Position numbers and translations under genes: made by a program
The notes under the pieces: model-generated
Databases searched by the model: none
What the model was told of the DNA's origin: nothing
The model's input: only the letters and a program-made list of their open reading frames with translations
Assembly: GCF_001592225.1 (NCBI RefSeq)
Contig: NZ_BCWN01000002.1
Coordinates: 124,001-188,000 of the forward strand
Origin: Castellaniella caeni NBRC 101664
GTDB lineage: Bacteria > Pseudomonadota > Gammaproteobacteria > Burkholderiales > Burkholderiaceae_B
Direction of reading: 5' to 3'
DNA: 64,000 nt
Shown here: positions 4,281 to 17,062 of the stretch, piece by piece
Numbering within the stretch: the stretch's first letter is position 1
How the letters are laid out: each line of letters begins with the position of its first letter

Positions 4281-4795
4281 AACGTAGCAGCAAACGCAGA
4301 GCGGCAATCGTAGGGGGGGGCCTCATTCTTGCAACAGTGGGCGTGCTCTTCGGTTGGCGCCAGATCTTTGCACCACCCACCGGGTCCGCTGCTGATTATG
4401 CAACAGCACCCAGCAGCGGTTTCATGGATTCATCGACGCATGTGACCGCCTCTCTCACTAGGACTGGAGAAGATGGCATCGTCACCCTGCATATCGGCAA
4501 GGACTGGCACGTCAACGCCAACCCCGCCTCGCTTGAGAACCTGATCGCCTCGACGGTCATGATCGAACATAACGGCTCGCAACGTGCGGCGCAAGCGACC
4601 TACCCACCCGGCAAGAGCAGCGGCATCACGATCGAAAGCACAGACATCCTGGTCTACGAAGACGGCACGGCCATCCCTGCGAAAAACCTGGGCGATGCGC
4701 CAGGCGACCGTGTGCTAGTGCGCGTCCAGGCCTGCAACACGCAAGGCATCTGCCTTGCGCCTGCGACGATCGTCGCCACCGGTAGTCAGATTTGA
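4277..4795 (+). CDS. DsbD alpha-domain-like periplasmic protein
   Basis: The product is 172 aa with an uncleaved-looking N-terminal membrane anchor (about residues 9-26) and a periplasmic domain resembling the DsbD alpha domain (DUF255-independent, 'DsbC' family). Diagnostic features are the KDWHVNANP start, a YPPGK turn, and the cysteine pair C153/C159 in QACNTQGICLAP. The spacing of six matches the C103/C109 pair of E. coli DsbD alpha. It should receive electrons from the gamma domain of the preceding protein and pass them to a periplasmic partner. ATGA overlap with the upstream gene indicates stoichiometric production. The arrangement is a split DsbD with alpha encoded after beta-gamma. 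Confidence 0.8.
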   Translation: MKRSSKRRAAIVGGGLILATVGVLFGWRQIFAPPTGSAADYATAPSSGFMDSSTHVTASLTRTGEDGIVTLHIGKDWHVNANPASLENLIASTVMIEHNGSQRAAQATYPPGKSSGITIESTDILVYEDGTAIPAKNLGDAPGDRVLVRVQACNTQGICLAPATIVATGSQI

Positions 4796-4830
4796 ACCTT
4801 TTAGCGCAATCCCCTCTACAGGAGTATTCC

Positions 4831-5265
4831 ATGCGTCACTTCAAAACATTGATTCTTGCACTCGCCCTGGGTTTCCCGCTCTCGGCGATAGCTGCCGGCA
4901 TTCCGGTCAAAATGTACAAAAGCCCCAATTGTGGCTGTTGTGATCGATGGGCCCAGCATCTTGAAGCCAACGGATTTACGGTGGAGACCATCAATACGCC
5001 AGCCCTTGCTTCAATCAAGGAGGAGTACCACATACCGACCAACCTGGCGGGTTGTCACACTGCGCTGGTAGAGGGGTACGTGGTGGAAGGTCTGGTGCCC
5101 GCCAAGTACATCAAGCAGATGCTGGCTGACCACCTCCCCGTCAAAGGTCTCTCCATACCGGGGATGCCCGTAGGAGCTCCCGGCATGCCAGGCACCGCCG
5201 CTGGGCCCCTAAACGTCTATACGCTCGGCACAGGGCCGACACCCAAGGTCTTCGCTACCTTCTGA
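4831..5265 (+). CDS. DUF411 periplasmic metal-binding protein (CopG-like)
   Basis: The product is 144 aa with a Sec signal peptide ending SAIAA. The DUF411 domain shows MYKSPNCGCCDRW near the N terminus of the mature protein and a further Cys-His in LAGCHTAL. A Met/Pro/Gly-rich stretch (PGMPVGAPGMPG) follows. DUF411 proteins, called CopG in Cupriavidus copper clusters, are thioredoxin-fold-like proteins with a Cys set that binds copper. ATG 4831 is chosen because AGGAG sits 6 bp upstream and because it begins the signal peptide; an ATG at 4792 overlaps the previous gene. It is probably the last gene of the first copper operon. Confidence 0.85.
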   Translation: MRHFKTLILALALGFPLSAIAAGIPVKMYKSPNCGCCDRWAQHLEANGFTVETINTPALASIKEEYHIPTNLAGCHTALVEGYVVEGLVPAKYIKQMLADHLPVKGLSIPGMPVGAPGMPGTAAGPLNVYTLGTGPTPKVFATF

Positions 5266-12887: not shown

Positions 12888-13361
12888 ATGCCAAAGAAAA
12901 TACTGATCCTTGGGGCGATCGGTACCGTCGCAATCGGTGCCGTCGCTGCGCTATACAGCCTGACGCAGCCGTCTGGCCCCATATTCATCGAACCAACCAA
13001 CCGGGCACTTGTCGTGCAGGGTAAGGCCATCTACGCGAATAATTGCGCGGCCTGCCACGGTGCATCACTTCAAGGGCAACCCAACTGGCGCGAACGCCTG
13101 CCTAACGGCAGGCTACCTGCGCCACCGCACGACAAGACAGGTCACACCTGGCACCATCCCGACGCGATCTTGACCGACATCGTCAAAAACGGCCTAGTTC
13201 CAGGAAGGACAGCACCTCCAGGATATGAGAGCGATATGCCAGCGTTTAGCAAGTCTCTATCCGATGAGGAAATCACAGCCGTACTCGCGTACATCAAAAG
13301 CACATGGCCCTCCAAGGTATTGCAGTTGCAGAAGGAAGTCGATCTGCAACAACGGAAATAA
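12888..13361 (+). CDS. Membrane-anchored c-type cytochrome
   Basis: The product is 157 aa. An uncleaved N-terminal anchor (about residues 3-25) precedes a class I cytochrome c domain with one haem site, NNCAACHGASLQG. A distal Met ligand is likely in ESDMPAF. The C terminus ends ILAYIKSTWPS with a short helical tail. It closes the copA-copB-cupredoxin run and could pass electrons from copper proteins to the respiratory chain. ATG 12888 gives a proper anchor; upstream in-frame starts overlap the cupredoxin gene. Confidence 0.85.
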   Translation: MPKKILILGAIGTVAIGAVAALYSLTQPSGPIFIEPTNRALVVQGKAIYANNCAACHGASLQGQPNWRERLPNGRLPAPPHDKTGHTWHHPDAILTDIVKNGLVPGRTAPPGYESDMPAFSKSLSDEEITAVLAYIKSTWPSKVLQLQKEVDLQQRK

Positions 13362-13475
13362 GCCGTTGACCATGTCGCCACTTGGCTCTGCTCCGTCAGC
13401 AAAGCAGGCCGAGGCCAGCTCGGAGCCTTCAGCAGGAACTGTAACGACACACCACGCACCACCACCTGCAGGCCC

Positions 13476-13777
13476 TTCGAGTCAGCATGGCTTGATGAGG
13501 CAGTTTCACTTTAACCAAACAGCCTCCGCGATTCCCGGGATGATTCAGTTTTCGCAGGATCAATCAACTAGTCTGGTGCGCTTGAGATCTGCGCCGAGCA
13601 CATTGGCCGCATACGAGCTTCGGCAAGATCATCGAGGCGGTAGAGCAAGCCGAACGTTCACGCGCACCAGTACAGCGCCTGGCCGACCAGCTGGCAGGCT
13701 ACCTCGTGTATTTCGCACTGGGCGCCGCCGTATTCACCTGGTTCATCACGCGCGATATCCGCTCGACAATCTCAGTC
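13476..13777 (+). pseudogene. Remnant of a P1B-type heavy-metal-transporting ATPase
   Basis: Conceptual translation gives an actuator-domain piece (ESAWLDEAVSL), a degraded stretch, then VFAGSIN-stop-SGALEI, AEHIGR, a frame change, and about 50 residues reading TSFGKIIEAVEQAERSRAPV ... QRLADQLAGYLVYF ... DIRSTISV. This matches the region from the TGES loop to the TM helix before the CPC motif in heavy-metal ATPases. A TAG at 13569-13571 replaces an expected CAG (Gln), and one base appears missing near 13611. No CPC, DKTGT or ATP-binding region is present. The upstream stretch 13362-13475 shows nothing recognisable. Confidence 0.75.
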
Positions 13778-13817
13778 ACGCAAGTGCGAGTACAAGAGAT
13801 AAGTCACTCGTCACTCG

Positions 13818-14054
13818 TCACCCCTCTCCCCGCAACTCCGGCCAGATCTGCCACCAGTCGTCCGGACGTAGCTGCTTCCGAGTGACCTCTCCGCCGGTCA
13901 GCTCCTCGATCTCGACGCAGCGAATGATCGGCACTGGGCGACTGCCGGCCGCCCAGCCGCTGACGACAGGCACCGGCACGCCCAATTTGTTGGCGAGCTT
14001 GGTCATCCCGCCCATCACGGCACAGGCTTCACGGACAGGCTGAAAATCGGGCAT
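13818..14054 (-). CDS. YdaS/Cro-like helix-turn-helix regulator
   Basis: The product is 78 aa. A short HTH reads GGMTKLANKLGVPVPVVSGW, followed by SRPVPIIRCVEIEELTGGEVTRKQLRPDDW, which is the diagnostic C-terminal half of the pYdaS antitoxin/Cro superfamily. Such proteins are repressors in prophages and integrative elements. It faces the copper genes and is the only regulator-like gene near the integrase, so control of element mobility is plausible. A CCATGT-N5-ACATGG inverted repeat 13 bp upstream may be its own operator. Confidence 0.8.
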   Translation of the reverse strand: MPDFQPVREACAVMGGMTKLANKLGVPVPVVSGWAAGSRPVPIIRCVEIEELTGGEVTRKQLRPDDWWQIWPELRGEG

Positions 14055-14066
14055 ATGCTTCCATAA

Positions 14067-14083
14067 CCATGTTAGCTACATGG
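14067..14083. promoter_or_regulatory. Inverted repeat upstream of YdaS-like gene
   Basis: CCATGT and ACATGG arms with a 5-bp centre lie directly upstream of the minus-strand regulator start codon. Position and size suit an autoregulatory operator. Confidence 0.4.
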
Positions 14084-14421
14084 ATTCTATAAGATAAATC
14101 CGTTATATCGAGGCGACGAGAGATACCCGTTTGTACCGAGCCATGACGGTAAAGTTCAGCACTCACACGCGAACTTGTAACCGCAGGTCATATAACCACA
14201 CTGCGCGTATGAAACAAGCTGAACCAACCTGAACCATGACGCGGTGTCCCACCCATAGGACGTGAGGCAGATTACAAGATCGGCCGACCACACGCCAGTG
14301 GTCACAAGCCCAAACAAATTGCCCTTCACGCGTAGCGCTCACGCATAGGGGGATCAGCTAAGCTCGTTTACACCTCAGTAGAGCCTTGAATTGATTGTAA
14401 AGACAACCAACAAATTGCCTA

Positions 14422-14487
14422 TTGACAAGACTTATGCTGTTGGTAAGAATCTAGCCATCTGCTCCAAGCAGAATCGCTCTTTAACAA
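14422..14487 (+). promoter_or_regulatory. Promoter followed by boxA-like antitermination motif
   Basis: TTGACA (14422-14427) and an extended TG-type -10 TAAGAA (14444-14449) are 16 bp apart. About 27 bp downstream sits GCTCTTTAACAA (14476-14487), which matches the boxA element of rRNA leaders. No convincing protein gene lies between it and the HTH gene at 14952. The whole 14100-14951 stretch otherwise shows nothing I can assign. Confidence 0.45.
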
Positions 14488-14951
14488 ACCACAAGCGATG
14501 AATACTGCGCCCTGCCCGATCACGCGGCACGCGATTGCGCAGCAACCTGTAAAGCATCGGAGTTGAAGCAAAACCGATGAAATCTGCGATCTGCAGCCGG
14601 CCCCTCGCGTGGGGCGCGGATGGCTGCAGGTTGCGGGGACTTCCCCGAGCGGAAGCGCCCGGAGCGTTCATCAGAATGCCCACCATCAGAAATGGCGACG
14701 TAATTTCACGACGACGGCAGAAAAGACTGCAGCACCCAGCACCCAGGTGACCCGGACTACCGGACCAGCACCTAGCCCTGCCGGGGGCGATCAAAGCACC
14801 CGACCCCCATCGCGGCATCTTGGCGGGTCGGCCCCAGGGCTCCGGCGAGCCCGCTTTGGCAGACGTCCACCGGGCGCCTACCCAAGCGGCACCAACCATT
14901 TGATGACATCGGCCTGACTGTTTTCACCCGGCCACCTCGAAGGATCGACGC

Positions 14952-15179
14952 ATGACAATGGCAAGCACTCTGACCATCCACGCAGCGCAACCTCCCACGA
15001 GCAGCCCGCTGCTCTACCGTATCTGCGTTGCAGAGAACAAACTGGGCGTCTCTCGCTCCACCATCTACCGGCTGGTCAACGAGGGCCAGCTGGAACTGAT
15101 CAAGATCGGCAGCCGATCCAGTCGCATCACGGCGGCCAGCGTGCATGCTTTGATTGAGCGCAGCAAAGGGCTCGCCTGA
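14952..15179 (+). CDS. AlpA/excisionase-type helix-turn-helix protein
   Basis: The product is 75 aa. The core reads YRICVAENKLGVSRSTIYRLVNEGQLELIKIGSRSSRIT, a MerR-like winged HTH of the excisionase/AlpA family, in which a binding helix (SRSTIYRL) is followed by a basic wing. These proteins bend DNA for excision or activate int genes in genomic islands. AAGGA lies about 8 bp upstream of ATG 14952. It is followed by a second, different excisionase-like gene and by the integrase. Confidence 0.8.
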   Translation: MTMASTLTIHAAQPPTSSPLLYRICVAENKLGVSRSTIYRLVNEGQLELIKIGSRSSRITAASVHALIERSKGLA

Positions 15180-15281: not shown

Positions 15282-15563
15282 ATGACCATTCGCTACATCA
15301 CAATCATTCAATTTGCCAAGCTCTCAGGCTATACAGAAAACGCCATCCGAACGAAGCTGCGCGACGGCGTTTGGCGTGAGGGCCACGAATGGGTCAAGGC
15401 ACCCGACGGGCGGATTCTGATCGACACGGAGGGTTACGACGCATGGGTAGGGACGGAAGGGGTGTTGCCGCCGCCTCGGAAAGCAGTATTCAAATCACGT
15501 TCCAGTACCGGGGCCGCCGGTGCAGGGAAAAGATTCGGCTCAAGCCCACGCCCGCTAATCTGA
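15282..15563 (+). CDS. Excisionase-like DNA-binding protein
   Basis: The product is 93 aa. The N-terminal part, ITIIQFAKLSGYTENAIRTK with VWREGHEWVKAPDGRILID, is typical of small excisionases that accompany phage-type integrases. The last third is Ser/Arg/Pro-rich and is read from the same bases as the start of the integrase gene in another frame. That overlap (15443-15563) suggests translational coupling. It should set the direction of site-specific recombination. Confidence 0.75.
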   Translation: MTIRYITIIQFAKLSGYTENAIRTKLRDGVWREGHEWVKAPDGRILIDTEGYDAWVGTEGVLPPPRKAVFKSRSSTGAAGAGKRFGSSPRPLI

Positions 15564-16594
15564 AACGTGCGGAACGCCACCGCGCAGCCATTCTGGTGGC
15601 CATCGAGGCGGGCACCTTTGACTACGCCGCCACCTTCCCTGACAGCTCCAATGCCGCCCGATTTGCCGACCTTCCGGGCCAAGTGCTCACGACAGAAAAG
15701 TATCTGACCGACTGGCTGCGTGGGCAGGAGAAGCATCTCAAGGCGTCCACCTATGAGGGCTACCGAAAGATCGTGGATTACCAGCTGATCCCGCGTCTGG
15801 GTCAGATCAAGCTGGCTGACATCAAACGCCGTGATCTCCGCGACTGGATGGATGAGATGGACGCAAGCAACAAACGTCTGGCAAACATCCAGAGCGTGCT
15901 GCGCAAGGCCTTGTCCGATGCCGTTGAAGACGAGCTGTTGGACGACAACCCGCTGACACGATATACATACCGAAAGACCCAGCCACCGATCAAGCGTGAC
16001 ACGGTCGATCCTTTCACACCAGCAGAGCAGCGAGCCATCATTGAGAAATGCCTGCCGCCCATGGCCAATCAGGTGCAATTTGCGCTGTGGTCAGGCCTGC
16101 GCACCAGCGAACTGGTCGCCTTGACCTGGGACGACATTGACTTCCACCGTGGCGTCGTCATCGTCGATAAAGCCCTGACACAAGCAGCGAAAGGAACGAT
16201 TGAGGACACCAAAACCCGTGCCGGTCGGCGCGAGGTCAAGATGCTGGGCCCCGCGCGTGCCGCTTTGCAGGCTCAGAAAGCGCACACACGCTTGGCCAGT
16301 GGCCCCGTCTTCGTCCATCCCGTGAAGGGAACACGATGGAGTGGTGATCAGGAAATCCGGAAGTACTGGGTGAGGCTGTTGCGCCTGGCCCAGGTACGAT
16401 ACCGGCGTCCCTATCAGACACGCCACACCTATGCATCCATGATGCTGTCGGCTGGCGAACACCCCATGTGGGTGGCACGACAGATGGGCCACAGCAACTG
16501 GGCCATGATCATCCGGGTCTATGGGAAATGGATGCCGTCCGCCGACGACCAGGCGGGCAGCAGAGCCGAGGAAAAATTTGCTGTGGCCAAATAA
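15443..16594 (+). CDS. int: Tyrosine-type site-specific integrase
   Basis: The product is 383 aa. An N-terminal AP2-like/arm-binding segment (ITFQYRGRRCREKIRL) and a SAM-like core-binding domain (about 85-170) precede the catalytic domain. Catalytic residues visible are Arg in SGLRTSELVAL, Lys in the beta hairpin RREVKML, Arg-His in YQTRHTYASMM, His in GHSNWAM and the nucleophile Tyr in IRVYGKW. The first position of the usual HxxR box is Tyr, as in several island integrases. ATG 15443 follows GGAGGG. The gene ends 103 bp from the ssrA 3' end, so ssrA is the attachment site. Confidence 0.93.
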   Translation: MGRDGRGVAAASESSIQITFQYRGRRCREKIRLKPTPANLKRAERHRAAILVAIEAGTFDYAATFPDSSNAARFADLPGQVLTTEKYLTDWLRGQEKHLKASTYEGYRKIVDYQLIPRLGQIKLADIKRRDLRDWMDEMDASNKRLANIQSVLRKALSDAVEDELLDDNPLTRYTYRKTQPPIKRDTVDPFTPAEQRAIIEKCLPPMANQVQFALWSGLRTSELVALTWDDIDFHRGVVIVDKALTQAAKGTIEDTKTRAGRREVKMLGPARAALQAQKAHTRLASGPVFVHPVKGTRWSGDQEIRKYWVRLLRLAQVRYRRPYQTRHTYASMMLSAGEHPMWVARQMGHSNWAMIIRVYGKWMPSADDQAGSRAEEKFAVAK

Positions 16595-16662: not shown

Positions 16663-16697
16663 CCAGAATTGCAAGTTATTGATTTTAAAAAGAAAAC

Positions 16698-16745
16698 TGG
16701 TGGAGCCGGGGGGAATTGAACCCCCGTCCGCAAGCCCTCTGCAAG
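16698..16745. other. Probable attachment site (att) in the ssrA 3' end
   Basis: The integrase gene abuts the tRNA-like 3' end of ssrA, the standard target of such integrases. The exact core cannot be set because the second att copy lies outside the window; I see no second copy of the TGGTGGAGCCGG end in the sequence to the left. Confidence 0.6.
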
Positions 16746-17062
16746 TAGCTCTACATACTTAGTTGGCCTACTTTGAGTTTTAACCTTGGATCATGCCGGA
16801 CAACAGGCCCTTCCGCGGCGATTCACACTAGTTTAAGACCCGACCCAGTGACCTGATCGAACCCGATCCCTTGTAGATGACGCTGCTGTGGGTTTTACCC
16901 CACCTGACCCAAGGGCGAATCAGTGCAGCGGCTCACCGCTTAAGCGGCCAGAGCGAAACGCTCGTCGTTGGCGTTTAAAGTTTTCCAGTGGATTTACGAG
17001 CGAACTGGTGCTCGGTATGCACTATCTTGTTTTGTGACCCACGTCGAAGCCAAATCGACCCC
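16698..17062 (-). ncRNA. ssrA: tmRNA (ssrA)
   Basis: The minus strand starts GGGGTCGATTTGGCTTCGAC and ends in a tRNA-like acceptor with GGTTCAATTCCCCC and CCA. Its tag reading frame (16940-16972) encodes ANDERFALAA followed by TAA, a burkholderialean tag sequence. Length is 365 nt. A TATAAT -10 box lies at 17073-17078. The RNA rescues stalled ribosomes and tags incomplete proteins for proteolysis. Its 3' end is the integration target of the adjacent element, and the sequence there is intact, so function is preserved. Confidence 0.97.

Follow-up and report, generated by a model that had tools for sequence, protein, structure and literature searches.

Copper-resistance genes of Castellaniella are known from genomic islands, and the part of the published account drawn on here places one copper island at the nos locus, beside a tRNA-Arg gene (PMC11046850). 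The stretch of DNA analysed in this work, which we call the window (64,000 nucleotides, bases 124001-188000 of contig C2 in the 3.28 Mb, 60-contig genome of C. caeni NBRC 101664), resembles those islands, as far as that part describes them, in its genus, its copper genes and its location on an integrated element, but the element of the window lies at a tmRNA gene. At the end of its copper block the terminus of an insertion sequence (IS) abuts a piece of a P1B-type ATPase gene, and no account of such an arrangement was met in the literature searched, including the same part of PMC11046850.

Each of the two pieces has a close described or sequenced counterpart. ISRme15, an IS3-family element of about 1.32 kb on plasmid pMOL30 of Cupriavidus metallidurans CH34, is alike over its last 54–55 bp, including the region of the transposase stop codon and the terminal ...GATTCA, but the window keeps this terminus only, about 1.27 kb being missing. 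P1B-type heavy-metal ATPases that match the models TIGR01525 and TIGR01512 are found in a metagenome-assembled genome (L008), in Pollutimonas bauzanensis (L005), in another Castellaniella sp. (G116) and on the Novosphingobium plasmid pLA4; the fragment corresponds to one and the same actuator-to-membrane-region stretch of these proteins and, unlike them, is short and carries a stop and a frame break. A metal-sensitive repressor gene adjoins the ATPase gene in G116 and on pLA4, and is absent beside the fragment.

The ATPase remnant sits within a putative integrative element at the tmRNA gene. An integrase gene stands beside the tmRNA 3′ end, and that end recurs as a direct repeat elsewhere on the contig (92% identity over 36 bases, with one gap). 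An element bounded in this way would span about 59 kb, of which the far part was covered by a listing of open reading frames only. At the gathering score, the tmRNA was the sole Rfam match between 12000 and 17500, so that the ATPase piece has none, and a phage search returned a single weak match, confined to the cytochrome part. Coordinates of the features are collected in Table 1.

Table 1. Features at the junction of the copper block and the element backbone (window coordinates; G000 is the genome of the window).
Feature	Position	Strand	Remarks
Small cytochrome c gene, intact	12888–13361	+	Pfam Cytochrom_C, E 5.9e-15; last intact gene of copper block
132 bases without convincing relative	13362–13493		Plasmids, fetched loci and 268 family genomes searched
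ISRme15-like IS3-family right-hand terminus	13494–13547	+	Last transposase codons and stop; terminal repeat ...GATTCA
Internal P1B-type ATPase gene fragment	13548–13777	+	77 codon places, one in-frame stop, one frame break
42 bases without relative	13778–13819		Between ATPase fragment and backbone; last bases overlap stop codon of next gene
YdaS-type HTH gene	13818–14054	-	Pfam YdaS_toxin, E 2.5e-18; backbone homology begins at its 3′ end
AlpA/HTH_17-type regulator gene of backbone	14952–15179	+	Pfam HTH_17, E 6.5e-8
Tyrosine recombinase (integrase)	15389–16594	+	Pfam Arm-DNA-bind_2, Phage_integrase
Attachment-like direct repeat over tmRNA 3′ end	16692–16727	+	Partner G000:C2:81281-81315
tmRNA gene	16698–17062	-	Adjoins tyrosine recombinase 15389–16594

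The original prediction of a decayed P1B-type ATPase piece at the end of the copper block, with some 50 uninterrupted residues, is confirmed. The plus-strand frame from 13613 encodes 55 residues of a P-type ATPase, TSFGKIIEAVEQAERSRAPVQRLADQLAGYLVYFALGAAVFTWFITRDIRSTISV, which score 33.5 bits against Pfam E1-E2_ATPase (gathering cutoff 28.1) and match TIGR01525 with E 2.5e-9, far under the whole-protein cutoff of that model. A heavy-metal ATPase match had been proposed as the check, and the product aligns along its full 55 residues with proteins of other genomes, with identities reaching 89% (among the best 80 of 227 relatives listed for it, which were those taken for comparison); at the DNA level the best blastn match, to L008, has an E of 3.7e-54, homology far above chance. 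The predicted stop and frame break ahead of the open stretch are likewise both present: bases 13548-13610, in another frame, read VFAGSIN*SGALEICAEHIGR, with one in-frame stop (asterisk), and align with the family consensus VFAGSINQSGALEIRAERIGR, and one frame break separates them from the frame of 13613. What had been said of gene calling was right in substance, since among open reading frames of at least 70 aa a single wrong-frame plus-strand one (13225–14043) runs over the fragment, with antisense frames at 13142–13465 and 13818–14054 flanking it.

The limits of the piece were mapped by comparing bases 13300–14100 with 81 relatives (80 genome-contig loci and one plasmid). DNA matches were found in 80 of the 81, all of them beginning at or after 13544 and finishing at or before 13779; the match starts exactly at 13548 in 49 of the 80 and ends between 13776 and 13778 in 67. 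The ATPase piece is therefore 230 bp long, or about 77 of 655 codon places (roughly 12% of the gene), and of the predicted extent, 13476–13777, the end stands while the start moves to 13548, where ATPase homology begins. The retained stretch, which covers part of the actuator domain and reaches into the membrane region after it, opens shortly after TGES and closes before the motif of membrane helix 4. The relatives carry TGES before and DKTGT after the corresponding stretch, and neither of these, nor helix 4 with its CPx position, nor any part of the gene further downstream, occurs in 13548–13777. What the pieces are, where they begin and end, and which coding lesions are present are matters of observation.

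The fragment differs from its nearest relative, L008, at 44 of 228 bases. Third codon positions account for 35 of the 44 (binomial test against a share of one third, p 4e-10), so that selection shaped most of this divergence and the gene, long kept by selection, was inactivated late. Four residues of the fragment are rare or unseen in the 81 relatives (the stop, two at arginine codons and one Phe); the stop and the two arginine-codon changes lie in the first 21 codons and are absent from all 81. In a leave-one-out count, the fragment's four are unexceptional, and because 3 of the 81 relatives exceed it, the count does not by itself, the stop and frame break apart, prove decay. In a tree of the fragment and the 81 relatives, no starred set included the window, the end branch of the fragment (0.22) was longer than the median (0.082), and the highest DNA identity to any relative was 80–81%.

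A scrambled actuator segment had been proposed upstream of the open stretch, and this did not hold up, as bases 13494–13547 are the ISRme15-like IS3 terminus and 13362–13493 are unmatched DNA. The terminus is 85.5% identical to ISRme15 and up to 96% identical to IS ends in family genomes, in a search that scored only two candidate places per genome, so that absences in it are weak. When seven other copies or ends are aligned with it, IS homology runs no further than 13547, with a common terminal GATTCA. The terminal-repeat pair TGAATC...GATTCA is represented in the window by the right terminus only; a TGAATC left end lies 1318–1325 bp off in four of the seven compared copies (L155, L156, L157 and L084), while L158 and L159 yielded no good left end and the L115 sequence is too short to include one. 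The full-length copy L157 encodes the transposase domains rve and HTH_21, of which the window has no rve core, only the last few transposase codons being left. A second ISRme15-like terminus is present in the same genome near a contig end (L115, G000:C21:62373-62425), and no clear transposase frame precedes it in the stretch examined.

The terminal GATTCA of the IS directly abuts the ATPase piece. A 24-base pattern over 13547/13548, allowing up to three mismatches, was sought in 268 family genomes and found in the window itself and at three other places, which have no IS end and no ATPase next to them and are therefore attributed to chance; no true match to the junction was thus found by this pattern in the 267 other family genomes. 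The unmatched 132 bases upstream had no counterpart in plasmids or in the fetched loci compared, and in the 268 family genomes, with three candidates scored per genome, they matched themselves and one chance-like 28-base stretch (E 2.7e-4). Because intact ATPases have variable, often His-rich N-terminal tails, 13372–13493, where a frame begins with ATG and is rich in Pro, Ser and His, was considered as such a tail. This reading is unsupported: the 40-residue frame 13372–13491 has no Pfam match, plasmids gave nothing, and the best tblastn match outside the window's own loci had an E of 0.02.

The last intact gene of the copper block, encoding a small cytochrome c, offers a view of what usually follows at this place. 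The protein is 69–75% identical to those of 17 family loci and 63–77% identical to those of four more (L105, L106, L113 and L114, of which L114 and L105 are near-identical), weaker cytochrome matches having been left out. In the stretches examined, a DUF411-type gene with an NCGCC motif follows cytochrome c in 17 of the 21 loci, and none lies within 1510 bases in the other four; Pfam bore out the DUF411 assignment in L089, one of the 17, and in the copy that the window itself has at 4792–5265. None of the 21 stretches examined has the ATPase family of the fragment after cytochrome c. In four of them (L086, L089, L101 and L104), past the DUF411 gene and on the other strand, lies a different P1B ATPase, 37–41% identical to an intact relative of the fragment (P0002), so that exporters of another group do stand near. 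These counts give no support to the idea that the ATPase gene normally comes next in the copper block.

Three intact members of the parent family that were examined closely are 656 (L008 and G116) and 669 (pLA4) residues long. The L008 protein passes both TIGR01525 and TIGR01512, and P0002 scores 538.8 against TIGR01525 (cutoff 346.25) and narrowly passes the broad copper model TIGR01511 (404.7 versus 397), while it falls well below the CopA equivalog cutoff (296.4 versus 1316). The usual metal-binding motif in membrane helix 4 of P1B ATPases is CPC. At this position the family has GAC in 62 of the 62 proteins with an identifiable flanking STIS, within AGACGIAAGT (n = 57) or AGACGVAAGT (n = 5); these 62 come from 78 proteins with DKTGT among 80 frames, the frame taken for L005 being wrong. 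With GAC in place of CPC and a score short of CopA, the label "copper exporter" is unsupported for the fragment on such sequence grounds. ATPases of this GAC-bearing P1B-like clade (L003–L083) are spread over several phyla. At the two loci examined for it, the metal-sensitive repressor gene lies just upstream of the ATPase gene (PF02583 in G116, annotated as such on pLA4).

Among ten genomes of the genus, the fragment is present in that of the window only, and G116 and G115 hold intact family members elsewhere. No recent intact parent was found in the window's own genome, in which the seven other matches of P0002 are 31–41% identical. Lying 0.9–3.4 kb to the left of the window is a second P1B ATPase, in two overlapping frames (G000:C2:120638-123095, or L151:638-3095), which carries YPC at the distance of a CPC motif from DKTGT. 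A plasmid gene of Paraburkholderia fungorum, annotated as a single gene, is 87% identical to it over 98% of the stretch, and the one-base difference in length fits either a frame shift or an assembly error.

Taken together, we suggest, with a probability of roughly 85%, that the piece is non-functional debris, left by the insertion of an IS3-family element into a P1B-type ATPase gene, or by a deletion from the IS end into such a gene, and by further deletions. An ISRme15-like element would have inserted into the gene, or have deleted from its own end into it, and its terminus (13547) would thereby have been fixed against the ATPase interior (13548). Later deletions would then have removed nearly all of the IS together with everything upstream of 13547/13548, and the ATPase sequence from 13778 on, stranding 230 bp between the copper block and the backbone of the tmRNA integrative element. 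We infer this order of events, the agency of the IS and the lack of function. The IS is favored as agent because its homology ends with its terminal letters at the very base before that at which ATPase homology most often starts; decay is favored by the stop and frame break, by the missing TGES, helix 4 and DKTGT, by the third-position pattern of a late death, and by the 21 cytochrome c loci, of which, in the stretches examined, 17 are followed by a DUF411 gene and none by this ATPase family. As the other IS end and any target duplication are lost, an insertion and an IS-adjacent deletion are indistinguishable here. The original prediction had called for a search for the parent arrangement in related elements, and none was found, either as an intact ATPase at this place in an ancestor or sister element or as the junction in the other family genomes searched, so that the steps of this scenario are not directly seen.

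The element may have held the whole ATPase gene or have received the scrap. That it once carried a whole exporter and lost it, as first proposed, was not borne out by the 21 cytochrome c loci or by the ten genomes of the genus. A form of this view, in which a complete repressor–ATPase unit was metal cargo of this very element and was lost in place, is nonetheless nearly an even bet. In G116 the intact ATPase (656 aa, 67% identical to P0002) and its repressor share a contig with cupredoxin and cytochrome c genes some 10 kb away, and the third-position bias points to a piece from a gene long under selection. The G116 gene, however, is just 75% identical in DNA to the fragment and groups with L045 and L051, the fragment and its junction occur in no other genome of those compared, and the piece could have come already truncated together with the IS end.

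Such a joint arrival of IS end and ATPase piece, already truncated, by recombination at the seam between cargo and backbone, with the full gene never present here, we likewise hold to fall only slightly short of an even chance. Its appeal comes from the backbone, the homology of which sets in at 13817–13823, at the 3′ end of the YdaS-type gene, with 75–76% DNA identity. It reaches 15166/15179 in G113 and G117, of the same genus, and in G111, of another genus of the family, and 14886 in a contig of the window's own genome (G000:C43) that continues for about 1.1 kb; in G115 it is in two pieces. The DNA preceding the backbone differs across the window and these five other copies, C43 and G117 being nearly identical to each other, and in these two a related cytochrome c gene adjoins the backbone across a gap of about 75 bp, with no P1B match in the fetched stretch. 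Into the 42 bases between fragment and backbone no match reaches, and the other five copies show no likeness to them upstream. Against an arrival in truncated form, no copy of the scrap was found elsewhere by the junction pattern in the family genomes.

Because the start of the backbone varies by no more than a few bases among six copies while the adjoining DNA differs, 13817–13823 could be a recurrent cargo-exchange seam of an integrative-element family in Castellaniella and a relative, with the IS–ATPase scrap as its scar, although we consider this improbable.

The shared module of about 1.36 kb (13820–15179) consists of the YdaS-type and AlpA-type genes and, between them, roughly 900 bp in which no clear gene is seen, and its neighbours, read by eye, are an integrase-like frame in G113 and an exonuclease III-like frame in G117 and G111. 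The C43 copy (L114) comes with a cytochrome c gene of its own, and over 2342 bases it shares 99.96% identity with the copy in G117 (L105, contig C1).

A role for the piece as a short functional protein or a regulatory element is very improbable. Although a 99-codon open frame runs through it, it holds only a partial actuator domain and the start of a membrane region, its homologous part is interrupted by a stop and a frame break, it matches nothing in Rfam at the gathering score, and its junction was not found in other family genomes. An intact gene split by a sequencing or assembly error, for which the 60 contigs of the genome and the nearby ATPase gene split by a frame shift might speak, is hardly credible when other sequence bounds the piece on both sides, most of the gene is gone, and the other P0002 matches in the genome are so distant (31–41%).

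We conclude that the fragment is ordinary pseudogene debris at the seam between cargo and backbone, with an IS as its likely agent; it is not novel in kind and opens no long-standing question. The partial ATPase match at this place is not to be annotated as a copper exporter. What the locus does provide is a base-level view of how metal-resistance cargo on an integrative element has been remodelled, probably by an insertion sequence.
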